Shown one piece after another: positions 2,997-40,377 of a DNA stretch of 52,635 nucleotides. Below the pieces are notes generated by a model, which did not search any database, had not been told where the DNA came from, and saw nothing but the letters and a program-made list of their open reading frames with translations. The position numbers and the translations under genes are program-made. How positions within the stretch are numbered: the stretch's first letter is position 1; each line of letters starts with the position of its first letter. The DNA comes from Peptostreptococcaceae bacterium (lineage in GTDB: Bacteria > Bacillota > Clostridia > Peptostreptococcales > Anaerovoracaceae), in the NCBI GenBank assembly GCA_016650175.1, contig JAENWG010000008.1:1-52635 (forward strand), in the 5' to 3' direction.

Positions 2997-3024
2997 GAAA
3001 ATAAAAAAGCACGCCCAGCGTGCT
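2997..3024 (-). terminator. Terminator of the Ehr-type operon
   Basis: Minus strand AGCACGC, loop TGG, GCGTGCT, then TTTTTATTTT. A textbook rho-independent terminator 77 bases after the last gene of the hydrogenase-like operon. Confidence 0.9.
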
Positions 3025-3101
3025 CTATTGACCTCGATTTGACTATCCTGTTTTTCTAATTTTTGTTTTCATAAAGTAATAATCTTAATATTTAAATCAA
3101 A

Positions 3102-3869
3102 TTATAAGTCCTTTATCTTTCCTGTTAATCTTAGTAATCCATCTAATATTGTTATCGGATTTGGCGGACATCCTGGAACCCATAAATCAACGGGGAATAT
3201 TCCTTCAACTCCAGCCTCTGTTTCGGGATTTAAAGCAAATAAACCGCCTGACAACGCACATGTACCAACTGCTATGACAATTTTATCCTCAGGAATGGCA
3301 TCATAAGTTTTCTTAAGAGCCAATACCATGTTCTTCGTAACTGGCCCTATTATCAGCAAGCCATCTGCATGCCTAGGTGATGCTACATATTCTATGCCGA
3401 ATCGTCCCAAATCCCAACCTATCGTACCAAGCACGTTAACATCTGCTTCGCATGCATTGCAACCACCTGCACTAACTACTCTTAGCTTCAGTGATCTTCC
3501 AAACATTTTTTTAAGTTCCGTTCTCATTTCTGCAACTGTCTTAAATTCTTCATCTGTAGATACTATTAAGTCTTCTCGTCGACTTGTAGACATGCTAAAC
3601 TCATCTGAGAAGTGTATAGCTTTTGACTCACATACATTTTCGCACTCTCCACAAAACACACATTTACCAAGGTCCAACTTTAATTGAGGTTCTTTGCTTA
3701 TAGCTCCAGTTGGACATATTTCGACACATGCATTACAATCTTTTTTGCATAAGACTTGATTAACAATAGGACGTCCACAATAATGTTCTGTCATCTTTGG
3801 TCGTTCTCCTGCAGGAAACTTGATTGTTTTATATCCTTGCTTCATACGTGTTGTAATTTCTTTTAGCAT
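3102..3869 (-). CDS. Fused 2x[4Fe-4S] ferredoxin and NuoB/HyfI-like small subunit of an Ehr-type complex
   Basis: A 255-residue fusion of what are normally two subunits. Residues 41-80 hold two [4Fe-4S] motifs (C41, C45, C48, C52 followed by P; C70, C73, C76, C80), as in HyfH/NuoI. Residues about 125-255 are a NuoB/HyfI-type small subunit with the four ligands of the proximal cluster: C137 and C140 in GGCNAC, C204 in VGTC and C234 in VPGCPP. All cluster ligands are intact, so electron transfer is expected. It follows the large-subunit gene by 14 bases and is the last gene of the operon, acting on the cytoplasmic face of the membrane. Confidence 0.88.
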   Translation of the reverse strand: MLKEITTRMKQGYKTIKFPAGERPKMTEHYCGRPIVNQVLCKKDCNACVEICPTGAISKEPQLKLDLGKCVFCGECENVCESKAIHFSDEFSMSTSRREDLIVSTDEEFKTVAEMRTELKKMFGRSLKLRVVSAGGCNACEADVNVLGTIGWDLGRFGIEYVASPRHADGLLIIGPVTKNMVLALKKTYDAIPEDKIVIAVGTCALSGGLFALNPETEAGVEGIFPVDLWVPGCPPNPITILDGLLRLTGKIKDL

Positions 3870-3883
3870 TTTGTGGCTCCTTT

Positions 3884-5428
3884 CTATAAATCATGTCCGC
3901 AATAAGATAAATTAAAGCTTTTGTTGCAAATAGGGAAATCAGATATTTCCTCATTTCGAAGAGCGACAGCTACGCCCATCCAATTATGAAAGGATGGATC
4001 CACTATTTTATATCGTTCAAATTTACCTTCATTGTCAGTTATAGCAACATGGCAAATTTCACCACGCCAGCCTTCATTGACAGTTACGATAAAACTATTG
4101 GCTTTTATTGAATCTGAAGAGACTATTTGCGATGCTTTATTTGGTGCATTCTTTAGTAACTCTCCTAATGCTTTCTTAATAAACTCAACGGAGGTCTTAA
4201 TTTCAAGTCCTCTAACATAAGCTCTGGCATATACGTCGCCACTTTCTGCTGTTCTAATTGATATTGGCATTTTCTTATACACTCCAGAAGGCATCGTTGT
4301 TCGTATATCTCTGCCTAGGCCTGTAGCTCTTGCTGCAACACCGACTAATCCAAGTTCCTCTCCTTGCTTCCTTGACAAAATACCAGCTTCTTCAAATCTA
4401 GCAAGCACGGACTGATTGTCCCAAAGTAATGAAATTGCGTCTTCAGTTTCTTTTTCCAAAAGCTTAATTTTATTAAGCATAACTACTATTTGATCCTTAG
4501 TTAGATCATAAGACGTGCCTCCCGGGATTAGAAAGTTTCTACCAAATCTATTTCCTGTTATTAATGCAGTCAGATTTAACCATTCGCCTCTGATTCTCCC
4601 ACAAAAGCTAGCCGTAGGTAAATAACCTATATCATTCGCAAGTGAACCTAAGTCACCTACATGATTGGCCATTCTTTCTAGTTCAAGGGCAATGCCACGA
4701 AGCACTTTGCTTCGTTCTGATATTTCAGTACTCATAAGGCCCTCTATATTTTGACAATACGTGAGGCAATGTCCTATGGTCGTATCACCCGCTAGCACGT
4801 CCATATAATGACGTGTCTTCTTATCGGGTCTACCGATAAGTGCCTTTTCAATTCCCCTGTGCTGATATCCTAATGCAATCTCAAGGTGCAAAACTTCTTC
4901 TCCTTGACACTGAAATCTAAAATGACCTGGTTCAATAACCCCTGCATGAACAGGGCCTACAGCCACTTCATGTACCTGATCGCCTTCAATCTTGAAATAA
5001 TCCCCTACACCTGGAAGTATGGCTTCTTCTTCTTTTCTGTTCCACGCATCTTGATCGGTCCATGAATGATGGTAACGAACTGGCTTTAGCCACGGGTGTC
5101 CTACAGGTATACAACCATATTGTTCTGCAATCTCACGCTCAAAAAGTTGTAACTGAGGGCAAACAGTTGCTAAGCTCGTGAATTTGTCACTATTAATCTT
5201 TGTTTGAGTCACCATAAACTGTTGATTTTCATCATCTAACAGTACCGCATAAAGCTTTAAAAATCCTTGTTCTTTTGACGAGCATGCAAAATATGATGAA
5301 ACTCTTTTACCCTCTCCGATGGATTGTTTTATAGCCTCCATAAAAGCTTTTTCTTCCAATAAAGGAATTTTATTTAAATCAATGGGTTTCCCATTTTTTA
5401 TATTAATGAAACTTTGATGACTGTGCAT
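3884..5428 (-). CDS. Large subunit of an Ehr-type complex: HyfG/HycE-like, lacking all [NiFe] ligands
   Basis: A 514-residue fusion of a NuoC-like domain (about 1-130) and a NuoD/HycE-like large subunit. True group 4 hydrogenases bind Ni and Fe with a CxxC near the start of the large-subunit domain and a second CxxC near its end. Here the first site reads AGDTTIGHC (213-221), with no CxxC before the conserved histidine, and the second reads DPSFHNWMG (477-485) where HycE has DPCxxC. All four ligands are therefore gone, while the surrounding fold signatures (GHFRF, YQHRGIE, LGLVGVAARATG, SFNLSY) are kept. This matches energy-converting hydrogenase-related complexes, whose catalytic reaction is not settled; H2 chemistry at a NiFe centre is excluded. 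Confidence 0.88.
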   Translation of the reverse strand: MHSHQSFINIKNGKPIDLNKIPLLEEKAFMEAIKQSIGEGKRVSSYFACSSKEQGFLKLYAVLLDDENQQFMVTQTKINSDKFTSLATVCPQLQLFEREIAEQYGCIPVGHPWLKPVRYHHSWTDQDAWNRKEEEAILPGVGDYFKIEGDQVHEVAVGPVHAGVIEPGHFRFQCQGEEVLHLEIALGYQHRGIEKALIGRPDKKTRHYMDVLAGDTTIGHCLTYCQNIEGLMSTEISERSKVLRGIALELERMANHVGDLGSLANDIGYLPTASFCGRIRGEWLNLTALITGNRFGRNFLIPGGTSYDLTKDQIVVMLNKIKLLEKETEDAISLLWDNQSVLARFEEAGILSRKQGEELGLVGVAARATGLGRDIRTTMPSGVYKKMPISIRTAESGDVYARAYVRGLEIKTSVEFIKKALGELLKNAPNKASQIVSSDSIKANSFIVTVNEGWRGEICHVAITDNEGKFERYKIVDPSFHNWMGVAVALRNEEISDFPICNKSFNLSYCGHDL

Positions 5429-5440
5429 CTTTCATCCTCC

Positions 5441-6874
5441 TTAGAATGGTTTTTCCATAAATGAAACTGCTTCATTTATTAATTGCGTCAATGGTGTCGG
5501 AATAGCTATTCCTAGAATTAAAATCATCAATAAAAACAACACTAATGGCATAGTTGTCATAATACCCTCATGATAAGGTGTATCCATTGCATCTTCTGGT
5601 GCTTCTCCGTATACCACCTTTACAACAGTTATGCCCATACCCATAAATACTATTAACATAAACAAAATATAAAGGCTTCCAGCAACTAAATGGCCTGCTG
5701 TAAACGCATTTGTTAAAATCATAAATTCACTCACAAAAGGTGCAAAAGGCGGTGTACCTGTTATTGCCAGAAATCCTATTAAAAATAGTGTTCCTGATAT
5801 CGGCAACCTTCTTATAGCTCCAGTTACCTGTCTTGTATTTTTACTCGCATAAGCTCTATGAATATTCCCTGAGGATAAAAACAGCATTCCTTTTGTCAAA
5901 GTACTAGCAATCACATGAAAGAATGTTGCAAACAAAGCTGTCGTTCCAACACTTAATCCTAGAATTAAGATACCCATATGCTCGACACTTGAATAGGCCA
6001 ACATACGTTTAAAATCTCTTTGATTCATCATAAAGATACTAGCTGTCAACATTGAAAAAAGTCCAATGCCCATTAATATTTTTGATGTAAACTCTGTTTC
6101 TCCTGCAACATTACAAATCTGCCATATTCTAGTAATAGCCAAAAACGCACCACTTGTTACTCCACCCGATAATAGTGCACCAACAATACCTGGCGCTTCA
6201 CCATATGCGTCTGGTTTCCATGTATGCATTGGAGCAAGCCCCATCTTAGTACCATATCCTATTAGTAAAAGAATAAATGCAGCTTGTAACCAACTTTTAT
6301 TAAGAGTCGCACCATTTTCTAGTAGATAATAGAAATCCATAGAAGCATCTGCGCCTCCAACAAGTGACGAATATGCTAAGAAAAAGGTTCCCAGTAGTGC
6401 CAAAGCGATGCCCACCGATCCAACTATTAAGTACTTCCAAGTTGCTTCAATGCTTTTCTTGGATTTATTAAAATAAATTAGCGGTGCTGTTATCAAAGTA
6501 GTCCCTTCAATTGAAATCCACATTACCCCAAGGTTATGTGACCAACATACCATGCTAAAAATTCCGATAAAAGCTGCTAAACATGCCACAAATATTTTAT
6601 TCTGTCTTTCTTGGCGATATTGCAAATATCCTGCTGCGTAAAAGGAACAGATTAAATATAGAAGGCTTACATTAAACAATATAATTTTGCCAACAGGATC
6701 CAATATTAACCAACTGTTTACATAGCATTGCTCTGGATCAAATAAAAGCCAAAGAGTTAAACAAAAATGAAATACTCCAGCGATAGGAACTAACCAAGGC
6801 CTGATACGATTCGATTGAACAACTAGGGCAATCAATGCCAACGCTATTGGAATAATGACTTGAAAATAGACCAT
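5441..6874 (-). CDS. hyfF: HyfF-like antiporter-type membrane subunit
   Basis: A 477-residue membrane protein of the ND5/NuoN/HyfF (Mrp antiporter-like) family with about 13-14 helices. Residues that carry protons in this family are visible: glutamate in WISIEGTT and lysine in GTKMGLAPMHTWKPDAYGEAP, plus histidine and lysine in HVIASTLTKGMLF. It should translocate H+ or Na+ as part of the membrane arm of the complex. It lies four bases after the HyfE-like gene and 12 bases before the large-subunit gene, consistent with translational coupling. Confidence 0.88.
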   Translation of the reverse strand: MVYFQVIIPIALALIALVVQSNRIRPWLVPIAGVFHFCLTLWLLFDPEQCYVNSWLILDPVGKIILFNVSLLYLICSFYAAGYLQYRQERQNKIFVACLAAFIGIFSMVCWSHNLGVMWISIEGTTLITAPLIYFNKSKKSIEATWKYLIVGSVGIALALLGTFFLAYSSLVGGADASMDFYYLLENGATLNKSWLQAAFILLLIGYGTKMGLAPMHTWKPDAYGEAPGIVGALLSGGVTSGAFLAITRIWQICNVAGETEFTSKILMGIGLFSMLTASIFMMNQRDFKRMLAYSSVEHMGILILGLSVGTTALFATFFHVIASTLTKGMLFLSSGNIHRAYASKNTRQVTGAIRRLPISGTLFLIGFLAITGTPPFAPFVSEFMILTNAFTAGHLVAGSLYILFMLIVFMGMGITVVKVVYGEAPEDAMDTPYHEGIMTTMPLVLFLLMILILGIAIPTPLTQLINEAVSFMEKPF

Positions 6875-6877
6875 ATT

Positions 6878-7519
6878 TTACTCCTTCAAAGTAGTTAATC
6901 GTCGAGTATCTAATGACGAAAATGCATTATTAATGTGATTAGTAATGATTGTGATAATAAAAATACTTACGAATAAATCAAGCAACATACCCATTTCAAC
7001 GATTAGCGGTATGGCTTCAATAAGCAATAAACTAAATATATATATTCCATTTTCCAAAACCAAGTATCCCATAACTTGGGATATGGCTTTGTACCTAGTC
7101 ACAAGTAGGATAAACCCTACAAGGATTGTTGTTATAGCTGCTGGAATAATCATGTTCACATAATTGCCATTGCCAGCAGTAATCTGATTAGTCAATAAAA
7201 AAACACTACCTGTAATTACTGCGCCAAGAATACTCGATGGTACAAACCCTATAGTAGGTTCAACTTCCCTTTTAATACGTATATTTTTCATAGCATGTAT
7301 CATAACCATCGGTATGACAACACCTTTTATTGATATTGCAGTAAGTGAGGCAATTAATTGTGGAATAGATAATCCTTCGTTTAATACCAACGGAAGAATA
7401 CCTAATAAAATACCTTGAAGTGCAATAATTCGAATGACAGACAAAATGCTTCTACTCCCAAGTGCTAAAAGATTAAGAGCAAGAATCATAACTAAAAGAC
7501 TATTAAATATATTGATCAT
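6878..7519 (-). CDS. hyfE: HyfE-like membrane subunit
   Basis: A 213-residue hydrophobic protein with about six helices, matching hydrogenase-4 component E. The segment YLVLENGIYIF carries the NuoK-like buried glutamate, and the C-terminal LDTRRLTTLKE is typical. It is expected to contribute to ion translocation next to the HyfC-like subunit. Gaps to both neighbours are only 3-4 bases, so it is co-translated with them. Confidence 0.87.
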   Translation of the reverse strand: MINIFNSLLVMILALNLLALGSRSILSVIRIIALQGILLGILPLVLNEGLSIPQLIASLTAISIKGVVIPMVMIHAMKNIRIKREVEPTIGFVPSSILGAVITGSVFLLTNQITAGNGNYVNMIIPAAITTILVGFILLVTRYKAISQVMGYLVLENGIYIFSLLLIEAIPLIVEMGMLLDLFVSIFIITIITNHINNAFSSLDTRRLTTLKE

Positions 7520-7523
7520 AACT

Positions 7524-8438
7524 TCACCTCACGAATATTATAAGTGCTGAACCGCATAGTAAAAATGCGGAAAATAACAAAACGGTTACTCTAGACATTC
7601 TGAGTCTTGCCATGATTGATTCAACAATACCAACACCAACAGCAATAAGTATAATTCCAATTAAAAACCCAACCCAGGATAGTCCTCCATCGCTCGTAAA
7701 AGTCGGTAATATAATTGTGCAAAGAAATGAGCTCAGAATAAAGAATTTAACATTAGCTGCATATTGTATTAGACCTAAAAGTGGTCCGCTATGATCAAGC
7801 ACCATAACTTCATGAATCATCGTCAACTCTAAATGAGTATTAGGGTCATCAACTGGCATTCGACTATTTTCTGCTAACAATATTATAGCTAATCCTATAA
7901 TTACCATAACAATAGGTGCAAATCCATTTTGATTTATAATTCCATACAAGTTTCTCTGTAGCATAACTGTAAGGGACATCGAACCTGATAACTTAACAAA
8001 GACTAAAAAAGCAAAGAACAATCCTGGTTCTGTAATCGCTGAAAAAGTCATTTCTCTAGCAGCACCCATACCTTCAAATGCTGATCCCGTATCCATTGCT
8101 GCTATCGTTGTGAAAAATCTTGCCAATCCAAATAAGTAAGCAAATAATATAAAGTCACCAGTAAAAGAAATGACCGCTTGAGATTGTCCTAGAGGCATTA
8201 AAAGCCCGGCAACCATTACTGATATAAATGTTACGATAGGTCCAGCATAAAACACCCAAGTTGTTGTTCCGCTAATGACCATTTTTTTCTTAAATAGGCG
8301 TATCAAGTCGTAATAAGGTTGCAATAATGGTGCTCCTTTACGTCCAGCTAAATATGCTTTTGTTTTATTAATGATACCAAACAATAATGGAGGCATCAAA
8401 ATGTATATACTCATATGGATAATTAGATCAATCATCAC
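7524..8438 (-). CDS. hyfC: HyfC/NuoH-like membrane anchor subunit
   Basis: A 304-residue membrane protein of the complex I subunit 1 (NuoH/HycD/HyfC) family. The N-terminal GRKGAPLLQPYYDLIRLFKK is diagnostic, and acidic residues in the MNE/EHELTM-like segment (HLELTMIHEVMVLDHSG) are kept. This subunit anchors the soluble arm to the membrane and forms the entry of the coupling path. It is separated from the HyfB-like gene by 56 bases. Confidence 0.88.
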   Translation of the reverse strand: MMIDLIIHMSIYILMPPLLFGIINKTKAYLAGRKGAPLLQPYYDLIRLFKKKMVISGTTTWVFYAGPIVTFISVMVAGLLMPLGQSQAVISFTGDFILFAYLFGLARFFTTIAAMDTGSAFEGMGAAREMTFSAITEPGLFFAFLVFVKLSGSMSLTVMLQRNLYGIINQNGFAPIVMVIIGLAIILLAENSRMPVDDPNTHLELTMIHEVMVLDHSGPLLGLIQYAANVKFFILSSFLCTIILPTFTSDGGLSWVGFLIGIILIAVGVGIVESIMARLRMSRVTVLLFSAFLLCGSALIIFVR

Positions 8439-8494
8439 TTTACAACCTTTCCTATATTTCTAAATAAATTTAGTATTCGACAAATTTTTTAATT

Positions 8495-10474
8495 TTAATT
8501 TTTAATAAAAGGTACAAACCATTCCTTATAAGGAACTAGCGTCGCCATTAGAATAAGTACAGCAATCAGTATATAAAGAATATAGTTCTGTGATGCTCCT
8601 TGTTGAAAGCGTCCAAACCATGAAGAAGCATTCTGTGTCCACCTAAATACTGGTTTTAAAAGTCTGTCTAAAACCAATTCATTGACATGACTTTCAAAGT
8701 TTACTCTATCTGGCATTACAGCATTAAGCTTTGTTCTATGGACTTTAGAATGTAATACCCAGTCGAACATGATGGCAAATCCATTGCCAAAAGATGCAGC
8801 TGTATACTGCATTCGACTGGTTGGTTTTGCATAACCACAATCCCATGTCAAAACTTCTTTTGGTTTCTTTGATCGAAACTTCATCCAAATATATAACCCT
8901 ACAATACTTATTAGAAAGCCAAACGAAAAGGCACTATAAGTCTTAAGAGGTACTATGCTTAATAATATGTCTTGATGTATAACAGATTCTAAAACAAGGG
9001 TAACGTACTGTGGTAAAACGCCTATCGCAACACAAAGTACTGCTAATATACCCATTGGAATTAACATGATTTTAGGTGATTCATGAACGGGTTTAAGATC
9101 CTCGCTTCTCTGAGAACCAAGAAAAACTGCAGAGTACACTTTTACAAAGCAAGCAGCAGCTAGTGCCCCAATCATAGAAAGTACCGGAGCGACCATCGCA
9201 AGCCCAATAGCATTTGGATCCCCAAGAGCAATCGGTCTAATCAATCCTATATAAATAAACAGCTCACTAATAAATCCATTTAATGGTGGAATGCCACTAA
9301 TAGCTACAGCGCCTATTAGGAAAAGCAGTGCAGTTGTTGGCATTTTTTTACCTATCCCACCCATAATATCAAGGTTTCTTTTACCCGTTGAATGAAGAAC
9401 AGATCCTGCTCCAAAGAATAATAAGGATTTGAATAAACTATGGTTCCATACGTGAAGCAAACATCCTGCCATACCAAGCGCAATCCATTCTGGTTGATTA
9501 TATGTTCTGCCAAGGTATGCAATTCCTAGTCCGATTAATATAATCCCTATATTCTCAACGCTATGATACGCAAGTAATTTTTTAATATCGTGTTGAGCGA
9601 TTGCAAAAACAACACCCAAAAGACCACTGATTGCACCGATTGTTAAGATTATTCCTCCCCACAAAGAAGGTGGTGTCGGTAACAGTAAGCCTACTCGTAT
9701 CAGTCCATAAATTCCCATCTTAAGCATAACTCCTGAGAGAATCGCGGAAACGTGACTTGGCGCACTAGCATGAGCACCCGGCAACCAAAAATGTAACGGC
9801 ATCATTCCTGCCTTTAGTCCAAATCCAATGAGGGCAAGAAAAAACAATGCATTTAGCATGCCAGGTTGTAAAGCACCTTCAGCAATTGGCTGAAATACAT
9901 ATGATCCTGTCGCATAATGCCAAAGTGCAAAAAAGACAAACAACGTTAATGTGCTGATATGTGTAGCTAACAAATATACCAAACCACTCTTGCGGCATTC
10001 TTCTTCCTTATCTTCAGTCATAACAAGGACAAAAGCAGAAATAGCCATAAGCTCCCAGCCCATAAAAAACGAAAAGACATGTCTTCCAATAAGTAACAAT
10101 CCCATTCCTGCTACAAGAAATCCCCAAAATAGTTGGAGTTTCTGGCTACTATCTCTATGTTCACTTGATTTCCAATAACCCATTCCATATAGTGCCCCTA
10201 GGCCACCTATTAAAAATACTGGAATTAAAAAAAAGGCGCTTAATCCATCTAACCCAATTAATGCCCCGCCAATGGTTGGCCAATAAAAAAGTTTCAACGT
10301 CGTCGCCTCTGAAAATATACCTATAGATGCCCCTATAAGGCCAAGTACTGAACTTATAATGACAATGGTGGTAGTTATGGCCTGTTCCCACTTAAATCCT
10401 TTTCCAAGCAGTATTCCAACTACACCGCTTAGGGTTATGCCAATAATTGCAACTATGATTAATTGAAGTGCCAT
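8495..10474 (-). CDS. hyfB: HyfB-like antiporter-type membrane subunit, first gene of the operon
   Basis: A 659-residue Mrp/NuoL-type membrane protein close to hydrogenase-4 component B. Visible family residues are the helix-5 glutamate in MGWELMAISAF and the lysine in GLKAGMMPLHFWLPGAH; the C-terminal WDCGYAKPTSRMQY segment is typical of HyfB/HycC. With the HyfF-like protein it gives the complex two antiporter-type modules; no HyfD-like third module is present. It is the first gene after the promoter at 10623-10651, with a leader of about 140 bases. Confidence 0.9.
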   Translation of the reverse strand: MALQLIIVAIIGITLSGVVGILLGKGFKWEQAITTTIVIISSVLGLIGASIGIFSEATTLKLFYWPTIGGALIGLDGLSAFFLIPVFLIGGLGALYGMGYWKSSEHRDSSQKLQLFWGFLVAGMGLLLIGRHVFSFFMGWELMAISAFVLVMTEDKEEECRKSGLVYLLATHISTLTLFVFFALWHYATGSYVFQPIAEGALQPGMLNALFFLALIGFGLKAGMMPLHFWLPGAHASAPSHVSAILSGVMLKMGIYGLIRVGLLLPTPPSLWGGIILTIGAISGLLGVVFAIAQHDIKKLLAYHSVENIGIILIGLGIAYLGRTYNQPEWIALGMAGCLLHVWNHSLFKSLLFFGAGSVLHSTGKRNLDIMGGIGKKMPTTALLFLIGAVAISGIPPLNGFISELFIYIGLIRPIALGDPNAIGLAMVAPVLSMIGALAAACFVKVYSAVFLGSQRSEDLKPVHESPKIMLIPMGILAVLCVAIGVLPQYVTLVLESVIHQDILLSIVPLKTYSAFSFGFLISIVGLYIWMKFRSKKPKEVLTWDCGYAKPTSRMQYTAASFGNGFAIMFDWVLHSKVHRTKLNAVMPDRVNFESHVNELVLDRLLKPVFRWTQNASSWFGRFQQGASQNYILYILIAVLILMATLVPYKEWFVPFIKN

Positions 10475-10599
10475 GTTTGAGCCTTTCTATTGTAATTTTT
10501 TATATTCTTAAAATTCAAGACTAACCTTCAAGTATTCAGTTTTTCACTTCACTGAGATACTTAGTAAAGCATATAACCTGCTAGTTAATGTCAAATTCT

Positions 10600-10611
10600 C
10601 GTAAATTTACG
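10600..10611. promoter_or_regulatory. Perfect palindrome just after the Ehr promoter
   Basis: CGTAAATTTACG is a perfect 12-base palindrome located at about +5 to +16 from the predicted transcription start of the Ehr-type operon. The position suits a repressor operator; the regulator is unknown. Confidence 0.4.
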
Positions 10612-10622
10612 CACGAGTTATT

Positions 10623-10651
10623 ATTATACATTTTATTGAGTTTTATGTCAA
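10623..10651 (-). promoter_or_regulatory. Sigma-A promoter of the Ehr-type operon
   Basis: Minus strand TTGACA (10651-10646), a 17-base gap, and TATAAT (10628-10623): both boxes match consensus exactly. It is the only promoter I see before the six genes. The rest of the 10475-10961 gap is AT-rich with no gene; the terminator of the RNA helicase lies at its far end. Confidence 0.85.
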
Positions 10652-14826: not shown

Positions 14827-16504
14827 GATAGTGTCAATATACTTTCGGGAATTAATAATCAGAGTATCCCTATATAATATGTCGTTATTTAGTTACATGA
14901 ATTAATTTATATATTACTTAACTTAAAACCACTGTTTATCATTTCTCTCAACCAACTCATATTACTATGATCTATTCCAGGAATATCTACGTTTAATGTA
15001 TCAATAGCGCTATAGGCTTTCTGTTTTACCTTTAAAGTCTTTATTGTAAGTTTATCATTTTCAACTTTCGCTAATTCTACTAAACCTTTTTTCTGCTCTT
15101 TTAATAAATCAAGTATTTTTCCACCGTTATTTATATATACTCTAAGCTTTGTTATTTGGTCACAGCCATGCTTGCTCCATCCCATAGGCCTACTACTCAT
15201 TCGTTTGCTTAGGATATGGCTTACTTGTCCTTCTGCACAACAAGGCCAGCAACCGCCTTTATCAACGTTTCGTATACTTATACCTTCCCAGTTGTTGATT
15301 AGGTATCTATACATATTCTTTACTTCTATAGCCTTTTTATCAGACTCAGTTACCCTTAGTATTTCTTCCGTAACAGCCTCTAGCGCATCTTTATCTGATG
15401 ATTCAATTGCATCCCAAATCAATTCTTTTGCATCCTCTACGCTGTCCCAAAGATGCACTGTTGCCGTATTTATATATTTCATCATATGAAATTTATCTAA
15501 TACAAATACCGATTTATCTACTACAGTTGTACCTGTTTTTATCCAGTTAGCTCCGTCTCCCGATATGTATACTCTTTCAAGGAATTCTTCGTCATATACA
15601 TCGTCTATGTAATCCTGTACCTCTTGCCATAGCTCTTCATTTTTAACGGTACCTTCATATACTCCACCGAAGTAATGCTTTCCAATGAGTTTGTTCCTAT
15701 GATTTCCTGAACCTTCTTTTCCTAAATCTATTACATCTTCATAAAGGCATATGACTTTAGGCATTATGGTATTTTGTTTTCTTCCTGATTTATCTATACT
15801 TAAATCACCACGCTTATCCCAAAATTGAGCTGATACATGATCTTCATCTGCTACCATATGTAAATATCTTATTTTTTTCTTTTCAACCAATTCTTCACTT
15901 ATCGGTTTGATTTCAAGCCCATGAATTAATTCCTTAACTGCCTGTTTACTTGTATTGTCAACAATGCTTGCGTTACTTCCTCCCTTGGAATAGCTAGTTT
16001 CAGCAGCTTCTTCAATAGTTCTTGCTGCAGCAGCCAAGGTTAATCTTTGATGAGGAGATATGCCCATGATTCTATCTACTAAGTAAATATATTTTCCAGT
16101 CTTCTTGTCTTCATAGCCTGTTCGCGTATAGTTAATGCTACCCATAACATCTAATAGTTGTTTAGGTTCATTCTTCTTTTCAACTGTATAGTATTTTTTC
16201 CTATCAATTGCCGCGTTGAGTTCTCTATCCACTTTTTCAATCACTTCTTTAACTATACCGGTTCCCAATTTTAAGACTTCGTTTTGAACGCTTTGAGTTA
16301 AATCATTAATATCGCCTTCACTATTTAGAATTAATCCCACAATATTTTCTAATTTTTCACTGCACTGTTCATTAAATTGTAGTATACTATTATACACAAG
16401 AGATCACCATCCTTATCATTTTTGTTTAGTAACTATATGATAACATATTGGAGTGGTCTCTTGTATTTTCTTATTTATTTTCCCGAATGTAATTGTACGC
16501 TATA
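14827..16504 (-). mobile_element. Complete ISLre2-family (UPF0236) insertion sequence
   Basis: A 1678-bp element bounded by imperfect terminal inverted repeats of about 25 bases (14827-14851 and 16480-16504, sharing GTA-related bases and the block TTCGGGAA) and by the 9-bp direct repeat TTCATCCAG. It carries one intact transposase gene. Matching target duplications and an intact gene imply a fairly recent insertion. It separates two c-di-GMP genes without breaking either. Confidence 0.88.
14907..16397 (-). CDS. ISLre2-family transposase (UPF0236)
   Basis: A 496-residue protein of the UPF0236 transposase family, full length for the group. Recognisable segments include YISGDGANWIK, VLDKFHMMKYI, a cysteine pair in GGCWPCCAEGQVSHI and RMSSRPMGWSKHG. 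It is expected to catalyse movement of the surrounding element. The only gene inside the IS, with its stop 80 bases from the left end and its start 107 bases from the right end. Confidence 0.93.
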   Translation of the reverse strand: MYNSILQFNEQCSEKLENIVGLILNSEGDINDLTQSVQNEVLKLGTGIVKEVIEKVDRELNAAIDRKKYYTVEKKNEPKQLLDVMGSINYTRTGYEDKKTGKYIYLVDRIMGISPHQRLTLAAAARTIEEAAETSYSKGGSNASIVDNTSKQAVKELIHGLEIKPISEELVEKKKIRYLHMVADEDHVSAQFWDKRGDLSIDKSGRKQNTIMPKVICLYEDVIDLGKEGSGNHRNKLIGKHYFGGVYEGTVKNEELWQEVQDYIDDVYDEEFLERVYISGDGANWIKTGTTVVDKSVFVLDKFHMMKYINTATVHLWDSVEDAKELIWDAIESSDKDALEAVTEEILRVTESDKKAIEVKNMYRYLINNWEGISIRNVDKGGCWPCCAEGQVSHILSKRMSSRPMGWSKHGCDQITKLRVYINNGGKILDLLKEQKKGLVELAKVENDKLTIKTLKVKQKAYSAIDTLNVDIPGIDHSNMSWLREMINSGFKLSNI

Positions 16505-16701: not shown

Positions 16702-17580
16702 TTATACCTTAACTATGTTTTTACCTTCTGCTTTTGCCTCGTATAACTTTTTATCAGCATTCTTTATGAGTTCATCAAGTGTCATTTCATTTTGGAGGCA
16801 TCTCACTCCAATGCTTACCGTAACATTTACTTGCACTTCATTGGAAACAACTATCTCTGCTTCTGCAATAGCGGTCCTAATACGTTCTGCAACCATACGT
16901 GCTGCTTCAGCATTTGTATGAACCAAACCAATTAAAAATTCATCTCCACCATAACGCCCAAGGATATCCAACTCACGCATTTCACTCTTTACAGCAGCCG
17001 CAACTTTAGTCAGTACAACATCTCCAGCACTATGTCCATATTTATCATTAATGTTTTTAAATTCATCAATATCCATCATCAAAATACTGAGTGGTAAACC
17101 AGCTTCACGTGCTTGGTTGTAAACTTCTTCTAATAATTCATGAGAATATTGTCGATTATATGTTTGACACAATGCGTCATTTTGTGCCATTTCCTTTAAT
17201 CGTTGGCCTTCAATTTTCTCTGTAACATCCATACAGCTCCCTATGAAGCCAATGAAAGTTTTATTCTTGTCATAAAAAGGAACCCCTCGGTCATTGATCC
17301 ATCGGTATTGGCCATCATGTCTTTTAAGTCTATAATCCATTTCAAACGGGTGCTGTATTTTAAAATTTTCAAGGTAAGTCTTCACACATCTATCGTAGTC
17401 ATCTGGGTGAATACCTTCAGTCCATCCAAATCCATTTTCTTCTTCCATAGTACGACCAGTAAAATTAAACCATGTTTTATTAAAGTAATCACATTCGGTA
17501 CTAAGATTGGATCTCCATATCATGTTTGGGGAAAACTCAAGAATTTGTTTATACTGCTCCAAATCCATCATATTCATCAA
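16702..17580 (-). CDS. PAS-GGDEF diguanylate cyclase
   Basis: A 292-residue protein: an N-terminal PAS domain (about 8-125, with FNKTWFNFTGR and WINDRGVPFYD) and a GGDEF domain (about 130-290). The catalytic motif is YGGDEF, and an RELD inhibitory site lies five residues before it, so product inhibition is likely. It makes c-di-GMP from two GTP in response to an unknown PAS ligand. No membrane segment is seen. It has its own terminator. The neighbouring larger GGDEF/HD-GYP gene suggests a local c-di-GMP cluster split by the IS. Confidence 0.92.
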   Translation of the reverse strand: MMNMMDLEQYKQILEFSPNMIWRSNLSTECDYFNKTWFNFTGRTMEEENGFGWTEGIHPDDYDRCVKTYLENFKIQHPFEMDYRLKRHDGQYRWINDRGVPFYDKNKTFIGFIGSCMDVTEKIEGQRLKEMAQNDALCQTYNRQYSHELLEEVYNQAREAGLPLSILMMDIDEFKNINDKYGHSAGDVVLTKVAAAVKSEMRELDILGRYGGDEFLIGLVHTNAEAARMVAERIRTAIAEAEIVVSNEVQVNVTVSIGVRCLQNEMTLDELIKNADKKLYEAKAEGKNIVKV

Positions 17581-30612: not shown

Positions 30613-31692
30613 TTATATATTCTTCAAGCGACGATTCACCAAGTCCATGTCAAAGCTTTTATACCATTGGCTTTCTGCCCATAATTTTGTGTTTTCATAT
30701 TCTTCACAGGTTGGATCGTCCATTATTTTAATAAACTCAGCATATCCATCCTCACCACCAACATTCTCTGGCGGTGTATTTCCTTCCCCATCCAAGCAAT
30801 AGGCATAGTTTTTATTATAATCAAAACTTAAGTTTTCAACTTTAATTATATGTTGCCAACCATCTCCAAAATCATACCTATAATTAACTTTTTTATACTT
30901 AGGTAGATAATTTGCTATTTTAATATTTTTATTCAATATCACCGGAATATCTATTTCAAAGACTAATTCTTCTTCACTTTCTACAATATCAATATACGGC
31001 TGATTGTTGTCTAGAATTATAAAATCATGTAAGTGATAATCTTTCCAGTCGAAAATGATTTGCATTACTTCATGTAATTCCTCGAAGGTAAAATTCAAAG
31101 GCACCATCACTTTGCGCCATACATCAAAATTTTCTAACTCCATTGTCACTTTTAATTCCAGCGCCTTACACCTTATTGTAGGAAGATTAAAGTTTTCCTC
31201 CAATTGCTCATAGAAGCATTCATAAGGATATTTATGTTCACCTCCATACTCAACAAATATAGATCGGTTAATCTTCTTAGATACTGAAGTCTGTATTGTA
31301 CTTTCCTCTATATAGTAACTATAAAAAATCTCAGCAGCTTCACTGCTTTTGTTTAGTTTAGCTACATTAGATCTGCTTTGTGTTTTTGAAAATATGATAT
31401 CTCCTGCATTCTTCATATACTCATTTATCATTTTTATGCTTACACCATCATCGAGAAGAGTTTGTTTAATCGCATATATAATTAGTTCTTTTATATTTTT
31501 CAAGTCTTTTGCTTTTAAACCATATAGAATAACAGTATATCGACTAGCATCGTTTACAAGAACAATTGTTTTTCTCCTATTTATTCTCAAAATATTAGTA
31601 TGCCAAGAAAAAAGAGGGTTTTCAACTGGCATCAGCATTGGCTTTATTCCTATTTCATCCTGCAATTTTTTTGTACAATTTATTATCATCAC
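30613..31692 (-). CDS. DUF6933 and pRiA4b ORF-3-like fusion protein
   Basis: A 359-residue two-domain protein. Residues 1-130 fit DUF6933 (INCTKKLQDEIG, LFSWHTNILRINRRKTIVLVND). Residues about 180-355 fit the plasmid pRiA4b ORF-3 / IS1096 passenger family: VWRKVMVPLNFTFEELHEVM, WKDYHLHDF, YRYDFGDGWQHII and GEGNTPPENVGG. Both families are common on mobile elements and have no established biochemical role. It follows the Fic gene by 30 bases and precedes the DUF6429 gene, so the three may form one operon. Confidence 0.85.
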   Translation of the reverse strand: MMIINCTKKLQDEIGIKPMLMPVENPLFSWHTNILRINRRKTIVLVNDASRYTVILYGLKAKDLKNIKELIIYAIKQTLLDDGVSIKMINEYMKNAGDIIFSKTQSRSNVAKLNKSSEAAEIFYSYYIEESTIQTSVSKKINRSIFVEYGGEHKYPYECFYEQLEENFNLPTIRCKALELKVTMELENFDVWRKVMVPLNFTFEELHEVMQIIFDWKDYHLHDFIILDNNQPYIDIVESEEELVFEIDIPVILNKNIKIANYLPKYKKVNYRYDFGDGWQHIIKVENLSFDYNKNYAYCLDGEGNTPPENVGGEDGYAEFIKIMDDPTCEEYENTKLWAESQWYKSFDMDLVNRRLKNI

Positions 31693-31722
31693 TTATCTCC
31701 TTTTTTAACACTCTTTTATATT

Positions 31723-32790
31723 TTATTCAAAACTTTTTACTAATTCATAAAGCTGTTTGTTTTGGTATATACGTTCTTTGCCTATTTTTTCAGAAGAGAT
31801 AAATCCTTTTTCTTCTAATGCAGCCAAATAACTAACTGCTGTTTTTCTAGTTACAGATAAACCTTCTTGAATATATACAGTTTTTGTATAAAACTCATAA
31901 AACAAAAGTTCGATAAGCTTCTTGGAATAAATTTTAGGTAACTCTTTTTTTATTTCTAAACGCGTCTTTTCAATTTCATTATTAATTTTTTTAACCATCT
32001 CTAAAGTTTCTAATGATGTCTCTTCTACAGCTTTAAGAATATAGATAACCCACTCTTCCCATTTGTTGTTATGAACTTCTTGAAGTAGTTTGTAATACTC
32101 ATCCTTATTCTTAATTATGTATTTACTCAAATATACTATAGGTGTATCTATAAGGCATTTTAACACTAAGTACAGAACATTAATAATTCTTCCAGTTCTT
32201 CCATTGTCGTCATAAAAAGGATGTATACTCTCAAACTGATAATGAATTACAGCTAGCTTAATCAGAGGATTAATACTATCATCGTCAATGTTAACATACT
32301 TTTCCAAGTTACTAAGTAGTTCAATTATTTCTCTTTCACTTACAGGAGGAGTATACACGGTTTCCCCCGTACTTTCATTTCGTAATATATTATCAGGAAG
32401 TTTCCTTATGCCTGCTCCATTTTTTTCTAAAATGCTCTGAATTTCAATAATTGCATTTGTTGTCAAAATTTCATTTTCTTTAACATTTTCATAACCATGC
32501 CAAAGTGCAGCCCTATAATTCATGACTTCCTTAGCCTCAGGGCTTCCATATTTTTCTGAACTCATCGCCCTATATATATCATCGTGCGTTGTAACAATAT
32601 TTTCCACTGCAGAACTATCTTTAGCTTCATTAATCAGAACTGCATTAATAAGCATTTTTTTATTAGGAATAGTATCCGCATATCCCTTTAGTTCTGCCAA
32701 TGCTCTATTAGATAATGCTACTTGTTTTAATATAGCTTTGGTTTCCAAATCTACATTAGGTGGCAACATAGGTGATTTTTCATCAACCAT
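31723..32790 (-). CDS. Class II Fic family protein
   Basis: A 355-residue Fic protein. The N-terminal inhibitory helix carries SSAVEN (S/TxxxE/N type), whose glutamate blocks ATP in the active site, so it is autoinhibited. The Fic motif is HPFYDDNGRTGR with the catalytic histidine, and the flap TGETVYTPP is present. The C-terminal 60 residues look like a winged helix (TRKTAVSYLAALEEKGFI). Such proteins AMPylate target proteins; the DNA-binding tail suggests self-regulation through the repeats at 32831-32877. A 3' scrap of a second Fic gene lies at 27725-27800. Confidence 0.92.
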   Translation of the reverse strand: MVDEKSPMLPPNVDLETKAILKQVALSNRALAELKGYADTIPNKKMLINAVLINEAKDSSAVENIVTTHDDIYRAMSSEKYGSPEAKEVMNYRAALWHGYENVKENEILTTNAIIEIQSILEKNGAGIRKLPDNILRNESTGETVYTPPVSEREIIELLSNLEKYVNIDDDSINPLIKLAVIHYQFESIHPFYDDNGRTGRIINVLYLVLKCLIDTPIVYLSKYIIKNKDEYYKLLQEVHNNKWEEWVIYILKAVEETSLETLEMVKKINNEIEKTRLEIKKELPKIYSKKLIELLFYEFYTKTVYIQEGLSVTRKTAVSYLAALEEKGFISSEKIGKERIYQNKQLYELVKSFE

Positions 32791-32813
32791 AACCGCACCT
32801 CCCTTATATCGGT

Positions 32814-32877
32814 ATAATATCTCTCCTTTTTACCTATGTCAATACAACGTAGGTAATATTGCTTTGTTTTTTACCTA
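32814..32877 (-). promoter_or_regulatory. Promoter and TACCTA repeats of the Fic gene
   Basis: Minus strand TTGACA (32842-32837), 17-base gap, TATTAT (32819-32814), 24 bases before the start codon. Plus-strand TACCTA at 32831-32836 and 32872-32877 and its inverse TAGGTA at 32850-32855 surround the -35, a pattern expected of an operator. The rest of the gap to 33122 holds no recognised gene, only the terminator of the DUF362 gene. Confidence 0.65.
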
Positions 32878-33081
32878 TATCATTTCAGCTCCGCCTGCTA
32901 GCATTTCTAATACATGCACTTGTAAGGTTTACAAATTGCCATCGCAACGAATCTATTTTAAACAACTTTTGTCGCGGCTATCAATGCATCAATTACAATC
33001 TAGCTAAAACACTTATGAAACTTCTCTTACCGTTATGCAACTAAAATGATTTAGTCAATTTCCTATTTACTTTTATTACAA

Positions 33082-33114
33082 TAAAAAATCCATTTATACA
33101 AGTTCGCATAAATG
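33082..33114 (-). terminator. Terminator of the DUF362-ferredoxin gene
   Basis: Minus strand CATTTAT pairs with ATAAATG over a 10-base loop, followed by GATTTTTTATT. It lies just after the gene's stop. Confidence 0.6.
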
Positions 33115-33122
33115 ACCTATTC

Positions 33123-34271
33123 TTAACTAGTTTTTTTACTGAAAATTCTACGAATTAACGGCTGCTTTATGTGAATTGCACCTTCAGGGCAAAGTTCTTG
33201 ACAGCAATAACAACGAATACACCTGTCATATTTATATCTAGGTGGCTTATCTTTATTGCCGTCATGCCAATCAACCGCTTTAGGATCTACTGGACACATG
33301 TTAACACAAACACCGCATTTAACGCACTCTTCTGCTACGATATACGGTCTAGGCGTAATTGCATTTTTTATAAACTTTATTCCACCGCTCATTTTTAGTG
33401 GTTTTTCGAGTTCTCTATTTACATCAAAATCCTTAGCTATGAAATCTTCTATCGGATCACCTAGTATTTCAATATCTTCTTCCAAGAATGTTCCTGCTCC
33501 CATTTCCATTCCTGCTTTGTTTGTAAGAAGCAGTGCAGGGTCTAAATCCATCAGTCTACATTCTGTAGCATCAAGGGCAATTGGATCAGTTGAAAAAAGA
33601 AGTACATTCATCTTTTTAGGAGTTCCTCCCTTAGGACCATTTCCTTCCATAGCATAGATACCATCCATTACATATAATCTTGGATGAATATATGAGTTTA
33701 GGTCAACTAGCATTTTAGCAAAGTCATATGCATCAGGTACTTTTACATGAAATTCACCTTTTAATGTTCCAGGTACGCATCCGAATTGGTTTTTCACTGC
33801 GCCAGTAACTCTTTGAAATCCGTGTGTCTTCATTTTAGGCAAACTAATGACTCCATCGTTTTCTAGGACAGCATTAGCAACAGTGAATTTCTTATTCTGA
33901 TACCCTTCATTATAGTGAACTTCTTTACCTGACTTAAAATCAGCAAGGGGAATTTTCAATTCCTCTGCGATAGCCGATACTCCTGTCTTTTTACTTGCTG
34001 ATTCCGGGCTTTGAAAAGCCGGAGAATCACCATATGAAAGATTAGCGCCCGCACTTTGAAGCACTTCCGCTACAGCCTTAAATACAGTTGGATGTGTCGT
34101 TACACATTTTTCTGGAGGATCTGCTGATAACCAATTTGGTTTAAGGAGAATTTTTTCATTTGGCTTTACAAAAGTTGATGCCCCACCCAGTAATTCAATC
34201 CCTCTTTCAACAGCTTTTTTTACTTCACTATATTCATAACTTCCGCAGTATATTATAGCTGCTTTAGACAT
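33123..34271 (-). CDS. DUF362 domain protein with C-terminal 2x[4Fe-4S] ferredoxin
   Basis: About 382 residues. The N-terminal 300 residues fit DUF362 (EKILLKPNWLSADPPEKCVTTHP region, SLPKMKTHGFQRVTGAVKNQ, DGIYAMEGNGPKGG). The C-terminal domain binds two [4Fe-4S] clusters: CVKCGVCVNMCP and CIRCYCCQELCP. An iron-sulphur redox role in the cytoplasm is likely; the reaction is unknown. The start at 34271 (MSKAAI) is chosen because AGGAGG lies eight bases before it; a longer frame to 34340 lacks a ribosome site. Confidence 0.88.
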   Translation of the reverse strand: MSKAAIIYCGSYEYSEVKKAVERGIELLGGASTFVKPNEKILLKPNWLSADPPEKCVTTHPTVFKAVAEVLQSAGANLSYGDSPAFQSPESASKKTGVSAIAEELKIPLADFKSGKEVHYNEGYQNKKFTVANAVLENDGVISLPKMKTHGFQRVTGAVKNQFGCVPGTLKGEFHVKVPDAYDFAKMLVDLNSYIHPRLYVMDGIYAMEGNGPKGGTPKKMNVLLFSTDPIALDATECRLMDLDPALLLTNKAGMEMGAGTFLEEDIEILGDPIEDFIAKDFDVNRELEKPLKMSGGIKFIKNAITPRPYIVAEECVKCGVCVNMCPVDPKAVDWHDGNKDKPPRYKYDRCIRCYCCQELCPEGAIHIKQPLIRRIFSKKTS

Positions 34272-34502
34272 ATTAATTTCCTCCTTTGGTCTGGTCAATA
34301 TTGTTTCTGTTATTTTAACACAATTATTATCTATTACCAATGTTTAAACTTATTTAATGCAAATACCCTATAATAAATATTCCCTAAGCATCTTTATAAT
34401 TAAGTCAAAAGCTATACTAACATTTTGAATTCAAGAAAATAACGGTTCAACTATCTTTGTTTAAACTTTTAATTACATAATACTAGTCAACTCATTCAAA
34501 TA

Positions 34503-34545
34503 CATAAAAAAGGAATACTGCAAACACGCATTATTCCTTTTCCTT
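34503..34545 (-). terminator. Terminator of the PASTA protein gene
   Basis: Minus strand GGAATAATGC pairs with GCAGTATTCC over the loop GTGTTT, followed by TTTTTT. It lies within 20 bases of the stop. Confidence 0.85.
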
Positions 34546-34554
34546 AATTATCTT

Positions 34555-35367
34555 TTATTCTTCACTCTTGTCCTCAATCGCTTTTTTCTTTGTAAATAGT
34601 TTTTTAGTATTTTTAGGAACGCTTCGGACAGTATCTACAGCTACAGTGCTAATTCCTTTTGTAACTTTACCAACTTTCTCAATTTTATCTTGCCTGTTTT
34701 TATCTTTTTTATCTTTTATATCTTGCTTGTCATTATCTTTTTTATCTTTTATCATTTTACTCTCTGTTATGACTTCTTCATTGACATAATAGATCCAAAC
34801 TCGATCACCCGTTTTAAGTTTTGAACCAATCTTTTTATTATTCGGATATGTAACCCTAGTAACCTGACCATCTTCTTTCCTGACGAATCTCAAACTTGGT
34901 TTTTCTAATTTTTCGGCGGCCTTCAAACCTAAGCCTTCTAAATCTTCTCGTGCTTCATAGATATTAAGTCCAATTACAATAGGAACTTTAATTTCTTGAA
35001 TTTCATTTCCTAACAGCTCTTTGCTCTTATCTATTACTTCCTGTGTTAAATAGTAAACCTTGACTATCGTTCCTGGATTGACCCTTGAACCAAATCTTGG
35101 TTCAGAATACATAACATCTTTTTCGCTTTCATCAGCATATGCTAAACTAGGATTTGCAATAGCCGCGGTCGGAGTTAAGTTAAGCTCATCTTTTAGAACT
35201 CTTAACGCCTCATCAATGTTAACATCTATTAAATCAGGTATTTTAACGAGATTTTTTTGCTTTTCAATAAGTTCACTTCCCATTTTTGCCCCAAATTCCA
35301 AAACTTCAGGAGCAATCATTCCAGCTACAACTTTTCCGCCATCCATTAACATCTTTTTCTTTCCCAT
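34555..35367 (-). CDS. PASTA-domain protein without a kinase or membrane part
   Basis: About 270 residues. Two PASTA-like repeats are visible: VKIPDLIDVNIDEALRVLKD to VNPGTIVKVYYL, and VPIVIGLNIYEAREDLEGLG to LKTGDRVWIYYV. A lysine/aspartate-rich linker (KDKKDNDKQDIKDKKDKNRQ) leads to a basic C-terminus. PASTA domains normally sense peptidoglycan on Ser/Thr kinases or penicillin-binding proteins, but no kinase, signal peptide or membrane helix is seen. The start at 35367 (MGKKKML) follows a GAGGAG site. The gap 35368-35657 holds no gene. Confidence 0.8.
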   Translation of the reverse strand: MGKKKMLMDGGKVVAGMIAPEVLEFGAKMGSELIEKQKNLVKIPDLIDVNIDEALRVLKDELNLTPTAAIANPSLAYADESEKDVMYSEPRFGSRVNPGTIVKVYYLTQEVIDKSKELLGNEIQEIKVPIVIGLNIYEAREDLEGLGLKAAEKLEKPSLRFVRKEDGQVTRVTYPNNKKIGSKLKTGDRVWIYYVNEEVITESKMIKDKKDNDKQDIKDKKDKNRQDKIEKVGKVTKGISTVAVDTVRSVPKNTKKLFTKKKAIEDKSEE

Positions 35368-35657
35368 AATACAAATTCTCCTCTTTACGTTGCTTCTTTT
35401 TAATTGCTTTATTCCCTTGCTAAGCATTTCAACAATAAGTACATAGTCTTTGGTTTGTTTTCATCTTCCTGCTTTTTACTATTTAAGAAAGTCTAAATAA
35501 ACAGTGTTTTTTACTAGGCAAAATAATTCTCGAATACAGCGCTACCCATTTGCATTTTATTATACCATAAATCTTTAAACTTTAAGCTGTCTACTTTTAA
35601 TGGTGGCTCTATTTAAAATCCGACATAGCTAAGAAATTAAAACATCTACTATTTAAA

Positions 35658-36758: not shown

Positions 36759-36808
36759 TTACCTTTTGCCTCCTACTAACATTACATAAAATTATCTTTT
36801 AATAAAAT

Positions 36809-37351
36809 CTATTGTTCTAATCCATCTATTATTTCTATAAAGTATTCTCCGATTTCAACCATTCTTTCATCGGTTAGATTTATAACTTCTTCACTGTGTT
36901 CAGCAAATTCAATAACACCTAATTTTTCATAGTATGATGCAGGTTCAAATTCTTTCTCTATAATATGTTTTGTAGTAATATCCATTTTAAAATATACTAT
37001 TGGACCGTCAAGAGTTCCTGTAACAGATCCTGTGGCCTTTGTAATACTAGAAGTAAACGAATTTTCTGCTTTATTTATTCGAACAGTACCTTCGTTTGAA
37101 GTTCCAAATTCTTCAAAACCTTTAAGTCCCACGATATACATTGTGCCGTATTTTTGATTATAACTTAAAAAGGTAGCAACATCCCCATCAGTTACTTCAT
37201 AAAGGTCTTCATCTTGTATATTTCCCTCTGAAATATTGATCGCATCTTCTAAAACGCTATCATTCTCATCATATTGTTTAGAACATCACGTCAATACAAT
37301 AACCTCTATTAGAAGAATACAGATTAATAATAAATAACACTTCTTTTTCAT
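36809..37351 (-). pseudogene. Lipoprotein gene interrupted by TGA at the lipobox
   Basis: A 180-codon frame starts at 37351 (MKKKCYLLLICILLIEVIVLT) but meets TGA at 37288-37286, immediately before the Cys of a lipobox (LT-stop-CSKQYDEN). The frame then continues without further stops to 36809. A glycine codon GGA mutated to TGA would restore LTGC. From 37141 on, an internal ATG could still give a 110-residue cytoplasmic product. The domain (GTVRINKAENSFTSSITKAT, EVINLTDERMVEIGEYFIEI) is not recognised. Confidence 0.78.
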
Positions 37352-37383
37352 TCTTCGCCTCAATTACAAATTCCATCAATACG

Positions 37384-40098: not shown

Positions 40099-40107
40099 AG
40101 ATACCTC

Positions 40108-40281: not shown

Positions 40282-40377
40282 CTAAAATAGGTCTTTACCA
40301 TTAATCTCTCATTTTATAATTAACTCCATCATTAGACTTACTTAAACTTATTTACTAATCAATCTATGCATACTAAC

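Follow-up and report, generated by a model that had tools for sequence, protein, structure and literature searches.

The window analysed here is a stretch of 52,635 nucleotides from a Peptostreptococcaceae bacterium (GenBank assembly GCA_016650175.1, contig JAENWG010000008.1, positions 1 to 52,635 of the forward strand), and its minus strand carries an operon resembling those of group 4 [NiFe] hydrogenases. From position 10474 to 3102, six co-directional open reading frames (ORFs) follow each other head to tail in the order B-C-E-F-L-S in the ORF list. An earlier reading of the sequence alone, from here on the original prediction, had described a six-gene operon whose large subunit has lost every [NiFe] ligand, and had assigned it to the energy-converting or Ech hydrogenase-related (Ehr) complexes. 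Both the ORFs and their family matches agree with the six-gene layout.

Gene B (8495-10474) encodes a HyfB-like antiporter subunit of 659 aa with a Proton_antipo_M domain, gene C (7524-8438, GTG start) a HyfC/NuoH-like membrane anchor of 304 aa (NADHdh, PF00146, E 3.1e-31) and gene E (6878-7519) a HyfE-like membrane subunit of 213 aa, the family of which was seen in NCBIfam only (NF008556, E 1.9e-24, under its cut-off). Gene F (5441-6874) follows with a HyfF-like antiporter subunit of 477 aa, again with a Proton_antipo_M domain. The large subunit of 514 aa, a fusion of Complex1_30kDa and Complex1_49kDa without NiFe ligands, is encoded by gene L (3884-5428). In the 255 aa product of gene S (3102-3869), a Fer4 ferredoxin with two [4Fe-4S] clusters is fused to a NuoB/HycG-like Oxidored_q6 small subunit.

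Comparison of the host with the congeneric genome G001 gave dN/dS values of 0.118 for B, 0.128 for C, 0.085 for E, 0.134 for F, 0.12 for L and 0.107 for S. With all six genes in the range of 0.085-0.134, the operon is under purifying selection and is not decaying. A sigma-70 promoter (TTGACA-17-TATAAT, 10623-10651, minus strand) is predicted about 150 bases before gene B; it is the sole 12-of-12 match among the 27 promoter-like sites between 2900 and 11000, and G001 shares both hexamers and their spacing. As a class, promoter-like sites are not enriched in this region (27 against a shuffle mean of 31.6). About 75 bases after S lies a predicted intrinsic terminator with a 9-bp stem and a T run (3006-3026, minus strand), one of 8 terminator-like sites compared with a shuffle mean of 4.7. 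That the leader from the promoter to gene B (10478-10622, minus strand) might be a structured RNA was considered and rejected (z -1.13 against shuffles); this segment had no Rfam match at the gathering threshold and is partly conserved in G001.

Ligand columns, iron-sulfur clusters and antiporter residues

In an alignment of L with E. coli HycE, the columns of Cys241, Cys244, Cys531 and Cys534 hold Ala213, Thr216, Ser508 and Gly511. All [NiFe] ligands are lost, as predicted, and L lacks the four cysteines of a group 4 [NiFe] hydrogenase; the alignment places no CxxC pairs elsewhere in L at the right structural positions. The same columns read C/C/C/C in 11/11 sequences of the NiFe-bearing sister clade described below. 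At the first site, the motif AGDTTIG (213-219) had been identified correctly: AGDT (codons 213-216, 4781-4792, minus strand) aligns with CGIC of HycE, with Ala213 at Cys241 and Thr216 at Cys244. For the second site, the original prediction had named DPSFHNWM (477-484) as the remnant of DPCxxC. The loss of the second ligand pair stands but its placement does not, as this motif (3977-4000, minus strand), identical in 81/81 large subunits, pairs with HycE AATYANWP about 30 residues upstream of that pair. The true site lies within NLSYCGHDL (506-514), codons 506-511 of which (NLSYCG, 3896-3913, minus strand) include Ser508 and Gly511.

These 81 aligned large subunits, the window among them, constitute the sequence type defined below as type 1. 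Residue 213 is A in most of them (74) and otherwise S (4) or C (3); the single cysteine is kept in L059, L062 and L065, the ligand pair in none. Residue 216 is mostly T (78), with S (2) or A (1) in the others. Because GD at 214-215 and SYCG at 508-511 are invariant throughout (81/81), the loss of the ligands is not due to chance. Glu166, aligned with HycE Glu193, is invariant as well (81/81), and passages of a paper on the formate hydrogenlyase structure suggest that Glu193 exchanges protons with Cys531 (PMC9474812).

The C-terminus of L stops at the column of HycE Arg537, without an extension beyond it. Arg537 is the position at which HycE is cleaved. Such a "born mature" C-terminus was considered as a mark of Ehr complexes and discarded, as the NiFe-bearing sister clade ends likewise, and so do L089-L092, L124, L127 and L128, which are of Ech/Mbh type; C-terminal tails are present in the Hyc/Hyf-type rows and in L125/L126. 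A new four-cysteine cluster in L was likewise rejected. Cysteine is found at 174, 501 and 510 in all 81 large subunits, at 276 in 80 and at 459 in 76, and the set is broken in a wider type-1 sample, some sequences having another residue at 276 (Gly or Phe), 501 (Thr or Ile) or 510 (Ala). That sample contained 16 extra sequences, 12 of them new (L129-L132 repeat L016, L017, L004 and L032). In it, Cys174 and His481 are invariant and Cys510 occurs in 96/97 sequences; these three residues, (nearly) invariant in type 1, are absent from 14 sister sequences. Position 291 is Thr in the window and in one other sequence, and Cys in 79/81 type-1 sequences.

An AlphaFold2 single-chain model of L (pLDDT 82.4) had HycE as its best match in the PDB (7z0s_E, Z 35.0, rmsd 4.0, 464 residues aligned), followed by complex I subunits with Z of 32.6-34.3. 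Chains of the membrane-bound hydrogenase MBH and of its sulfur-reducing relative MBS were not among the 50 structural matches listed (VIA-align), which is no argument against kinship.

The original prediction that all twelve iron-sulfur cysteines and the Glu/Lys residues of both antiporter modules are kept was confirmed. Gene S holds 12/12 Fe-S cysteines, eight in the ferredoxin domain and four at the proximal cluster (C137xxC140, C204 and C234), and cysteine is conserved, column by column, in 73 to 77 of the 77 small subunits compared. At the proximal cluster S reads CNAC and so resembles HycG/HyfI (CNGC/CNAC), whereas NuoB has CC. The antiporter residues, in columns shared with HyfB and HyfF, are Glu141, Lys221, Lys298 and Lys349 in gene B and Glu123, Lys210, Lys289 and Lys328 in gene F. 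The fusion of ferredoxin and small subunit had been counted as support for an Ehr complex; this argument fails, since several NiFe-bearing relatives (L101-L104, L107 and L108) share the fusion.

Relatives, descent and genomic setting

A scan of genome contigs yielded 256 confirmed relatives, the best 80 of which were analysed. Going by the titles of their records, they span Planctomycetes, Verrucomicrobia, Omnitrophota, deltaproteobacteria, Hydrogenedentes, Lentisphaerae, Riflebacteria and others and are 49-56% identical in the best segment; the only close one is L001 from G001, a Clostridiales metagenome-assembled genome (82%). The order B-C-E-F-L-S was found in 53/54 loci with enough flanking sequence, 11 of these having a second B, and L003 consists of L-S only.

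Within 61 near genomes, 23 matched the large-subunit profile, at the type-1 level in the host and G001 only. Ten other near-genome matches were fetched: L083-L087 lack the ligands, L089-L092 keep CGIC and DPCxSC, and L088, which is cut off, reads ISGDE at the first ligand site. Among 149 sampled genomes of the host phylum, a type-1 level match was found in the host only. In the phylum of L016, 18 of 149 sampled genomes passed E 1e-90, 15 of them with type-1 sequences; of the other three, L144 is without ligands, and L145 and L146 keep the four cysteines. This patchy spread suggests horizontal transfer into the host genus.

The sequences that share (nearly) HAGIIEPGHFRF and DFPL.NKSF form four sets. 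One of 11 sequences keeps all four cysteines; type 1 comprises 81 sequences including the window; type 2 comprises 8, in which the ligand columns read S, E, S and G; and a third NiFe-less set of 3 has A or S, S or C, S, and E. In a 68-row tree the three NiFe-less sets were placed on one branch (bootstrap/SH-aLRT 100/96), with the four-cysteine set beside it (99/93) and the Hyc/Hyf and Ech/Mbh types outside. For this tree, type 1 was thinned to 28/81, the cut-off rows L088 and L123 were dropped, plasmid sequences were not included, and a midpoint root served for drawing only. The NiFe-less branch was retained when the third set, type 1 or type 2 was left out (SH-aLRT 98, 97 and 97, respectively). 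The four-cysteine set lost its support without type 2 (SH-aLRT 0), in a run from which NuoCD was also omitted. A small FastTree with five plasmid sequences had all NiFe-less rows on one side (0.947). Since the NiFe-less branch sits beside hydrogenases that keep all four cysteines, the NiFe site was probably lost, perhaps once. A single loss is the simplest reading of these sequences, with the caveat of the long branches, namely type 1 and the L086/L087/L116 group.

The sister clade thus shares with type 1 the HAGIIEPGHFRF loop, the DFPL.NKSF C-terminus, the lack of a C-terminal extension and, in some members, the ferredoxin/small-subunit fusion, but keeps all four cysteine ligands where Ehr has none. 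It is probably group 4f of HydDB, a guess taken from a passage of PMC10284858 that places Ehr close to this group.

Upstream of the operon and on the same strand, 37/51 loci with usable upstream sequence carry a gene for a helix-turn-helix (HTH) protein with an EIIA domain of the phosphotransferase system (PTS), although one of these genes, at the edge of its locus, is only a fragment; for 29 loci its distance to the operon is between -60 and +120 bases. The product is HTH_17 fused to PTS EIIA_2, usually with a PH.R motif (domains checked in four proteins), examples being L005:3283-3999 and L043:1159-1905. The window operon has no such gene next to it, and neither the host nor G001 gave a match to a profile built from 20 of these proteins. 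Among the literature matches listed, a link between EIIA/PtsN and hydrogenase-4 was not found. An adjacent partner oxidoreductase was also considered and rejected, as none of the downstream families represented in 601 ORFs neighbouring the 80 operons recurs at more than 7 loci, the largest being a regulator/kinase by its sequences; none was found among the neighbour ORFs of the window operon either.

Ehr operons were found on plasmids of Variovorax, Rhodococcus, Burkholderia, Caballeronia, Rhizobium, Mycobacterium branderi and Allomeiothermus, all of them aerobes. Two of eight plasmid small subunits examined keep all 12 cluster cysteines. In Allomeiothermus silvanus (L149:13308-14180) and M. 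branderi (L159:8848-9642), all four proximal cysteines and three of the four cysteines of the first ferredoxin cluster are gone, and these complexes are, by their sequences, possibly redox-poor. The Allomeiothermus plasmid bears a second, near-identical Ehr copy. The plasmid of Variovorax sp. PBL-E5 (L148:6890-25033) has a tandem pair of differing Ehr operons that flank a gene for a universal stress protein. The operon on the plasmid of Rhodococcus sp. ZPP (L150:6023-13311) has the order S-B-C-E-F-L and an S without a ferredoxin domain; by gene names alone, the mycobacterial rv0082-rv0087 looks similar, which a passage of PMC6901956 calls a putative NiFe hydrogenase.

Elsewhere in the window, a group II intron fragment (Rfam RF02001, 41.4 bits) is cut by the window edge at 1-48 on the minus strand, and a UPF0236-family protein of 496 aa (14907-16397) adjoins a PAS-GGDEF gene (16702-17580). 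The region 30613-43289 holds a run of mobile or defence-flavoured genes: PRiA4_ORF3/DUF6933, Fic, NERD-HRDC, a large AAA helicase with DUF2726 and a Schlafen-group-3 helicase.

Class assignment and candidate electron acceptors

Ehr complexes are described, in passages of the papers concerned, as lacking NiFe and as having a function that is unknown or unproven (PMC6349859, PMC10284858, PMC7304191, PMC4378227), and for Geobacter sulfurreducens the role of Ehr is said to have never been investigated as of 2020 (PMC7894505). The Ehr complexes of G. sulfurreducens (GSU0739-45), Sulfobacillus and comammox Nitrospira have, as outlined in parts of these papers, hydrogenase-like large and small subunits in common with the window, NuoL/HyfE/NuoH-like membrane subunits and no NiFe motifs (PMC7894505, PMC4378227, PMC10284858). 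The Geobacter complex has seven locus tags versus six genes in the window, the comparison being with the published descriptions. In the window, the NiFe ligands are missing, the proximal and ferredoxin clusters are present and the antiporter and NuoH-like subunits are encoded in the same operon. The assignment made by the original prediction is thus supported by the defining features of the class, not by a tree with reference Ehr sequences. Compared with E. coli hydrogenases 3 and 4 (HycE/HyfG, HycC/HyfB, HyfF), fold (Z 35.0), subunit types and antiporter residues agree, but the window complex lacks the NiFe ligands, HyfD, a separate HyfA and the C-terminal tail, and has its ferredoxin fused to the small subunit.

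We lean towards the view that the window operon encodes an Ehr-class membrane machine of the complex I superfamily, descended from a group-4-type [NiFe] hydrogenase and acting as a ferredoxin-linked ion pump, which is the most likely function judging from the sequence. Real electron transfer is argued by the conserved Fe-S chain, and ion movement by the retained antiporter modules. Electrons from reduced ferredoxin, the likeliest donor, would enter via the fused ferredoxin domain of S and, by way of the proximal cluster, reach a small acceptor occupying what was once the NiFe pocket of L. The reaction would drive H+ or Na+ across the membrane and could also run in reverse.

The gene content of the host bears on the acceptor. 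The host assembly (G000) is 78% complete and that of G001 97%; absences from the host therefore rest mainly on the congener. HypD, taken as a marker for the Hyp maturation genes, had no match in either genome, in line with the original prediction that maturation genes are absent, here for the one gene tested. Nor was it matched in 5/6 further Ehr carriers from the family or order, or in 13/48 other type-1 genomes; it is present in 35/48 of the latter. A search with PF00374 as a test for NiFe hydrogenases was set aside: it found 0/1 in the host, but missed the Ehr large subunit too, which is why we rely on the large-subunit profile, of which the host has no second match, and on HypD. The UbiA family (MenA, UbiA and kin) had no match in the host, G001, G037 or G047 and was found in all 14 controls. 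G037 and G047, both 100% complete, are further genomes of the order with a NiFe-less large subunit. This family also holds non-quinone enzymes.

[FeFe]-hydrogenase domains gave three matches each in the host and G001, and RnfC passed its cut-off in G001, whereas the best match in the host stayed below it (208 bits against 246). PF00384 gave one match in each genome. The host protein (1166 aa) adjoins NuoE- and NuoF-like genes in a Stn-like gene set at L167:3834-9601 (G000 contig 11) and matches the PDB chains 9bov_A and 8oh5_C, the latter named "Formate dehydrogenase-O, major subunit" by its depositors; 8OH5 occurs in a paper on the Stn transhydrogenase (PMC10482914). The G001 counterpart lies on contig 53 and was judged by position only, near a NuoF-like match on the same contig. 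The one formate-dehydrogenase-like gene of the host is thus probably, on these matches, a Stn subunit. With no HypD, no UbiA family and a Stn-like gene as the sole molybdopterin gene, hydrogen, quinone and formate are unlikely partners in this host.

Several observations weigh against a ferredoxin-linked pump, or against the route by which acceptors are excluded. No acceptor was found for the window complex, the function of which we infer from sequence. The pocket loops of the AlphaFold2 model (151-179, 492-504 and 507-514) have low confidence, and the host genome is only 78% complete. Members of the UbiA family occur in 4/6 other Ehr carriers of the family or order (G023, G026, G032 and G036) and in 48/48 other type-1 genomes, so that the argument against quinone holds for some carriers only. 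Among the eight plasmid small subunits, four are without a ferredoxin domain, their proximal four kept, and two (A. silvanus and M. branderi) have lost the proximal ligands. In view of these losses, not all members of the wider family require electron transfer, and the plasmid operons warn against one function for all Ehr complexes.

It is to the plasmid losses, and to the HTH-EIIA gene upstream of many type-1 operons, that a redox-silent or ligand-gated cation/proton antiporter would appeal, its hydrogenase-like arm having a structural or sensory role. For the window complex we consider this unlikely, although it survives best among the alternatives: the nearly invariant Fe-S cysteines of the window subfamily are hard to explain without electron transfer. 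Somewhat less probable still is a sulfane-sulfur (polysulfide) reductase like the Pyrococcus MBS (MBS/MBX), with the proximal cluster as catalyst. MBS is a ferredoxin-driven complex I relative without a NiFe centre that has lost two of the four cysteines, according to passages of PMC7684303, and the host, as far as can be inferred, is anaerobic. The same passages, however, attribute the MBS chemistry to a proximal cluster with three ligating cysteines, formed by a loop three residues shorter, and note the absence of the pocket glutamate (PMC7684303). Gene S has the hydrogenase CxxC spacing and type 1 the invariant Glu166, which disfavours MBS-type sulfur chemistry.

A ferredoxin:quinone oxidoreductase like NDH-1/complex I, the NiFe pocket having turned into a quinone site, shares with the window complex the superfamily, the modular plan and the 49-kDa/30-kDa fold, and most other Ehr carriers do have UbiA-family members. 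We nevertheless judge it improbable here, since the host and the three genomes named above have no UbiA-family match and the quinone His/Tyr of NuoCD are replaced by Ile165/Gly214 in L; the small subunit, too, has the hydrogenase CxxC and not the CC of complex I. Very improbable, finally, is a supply of electrons from formate dehydrogenase as proposed for Margulisbacteria (FDH-Ehr): passages of PMC6349859 report fdhA with NuoE/NuoF-like genes in Ehr carriers, and of PMC7894505 that all Ehr subunits of G. sulfurreducens were more abundant on formate than under hydrogen-containing conditions, but a formate dehydrogenase gene was not among the neighbours of the window operon examined, and the sole PF00384 match of the host is the Stn-type subunit, with a single such match also in the 97% complete G001.

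For the ferredoxin-linked pump that we favour, the acceptor or partner in the host is thus probably neither protons at a NiFe site, the ligands of which are missing, nor quinone, nor formate dehydrogenase, which appears to be absent. Tentatively, type 1 may be a ferredoxin-driven ion pump with a kind of acceptor new to the complex I superfamily, i.e. not protons, quinone or sulfane sulfur, which would bind in the vacated pocket and may involve Cys174, His481 and Cys510.

Ehr complexes are a known kind of complex and widespread across lineages; the value of the present case lies in a host that allows several candidate acceptors to be eliminated or rendered unlikely and thereby narrows the choice. 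This host, with [FeFe] hydrogenases and a Stn-type transhydrogenase, keeps the full Fe-S chain from ferredoxin to the pocket, and with no HypD, UbiA-type prenyltransferase or other molybdopterin enzyme found, the acceptor question becomes testable in one genus. Where an Ehr-bearing genome holds a Stn-like set of NuoE/NuoF-like and molybdopterin-family genes, that set could be interpreted as "FDH", for instance in the FDH-Ehr proposal. From NiFe-bearing to NiFe-less complexes, and on to a few that have also lost Fe-S clusters, the wider family offers a natural series for the change of acceptor in complex I-like machines.

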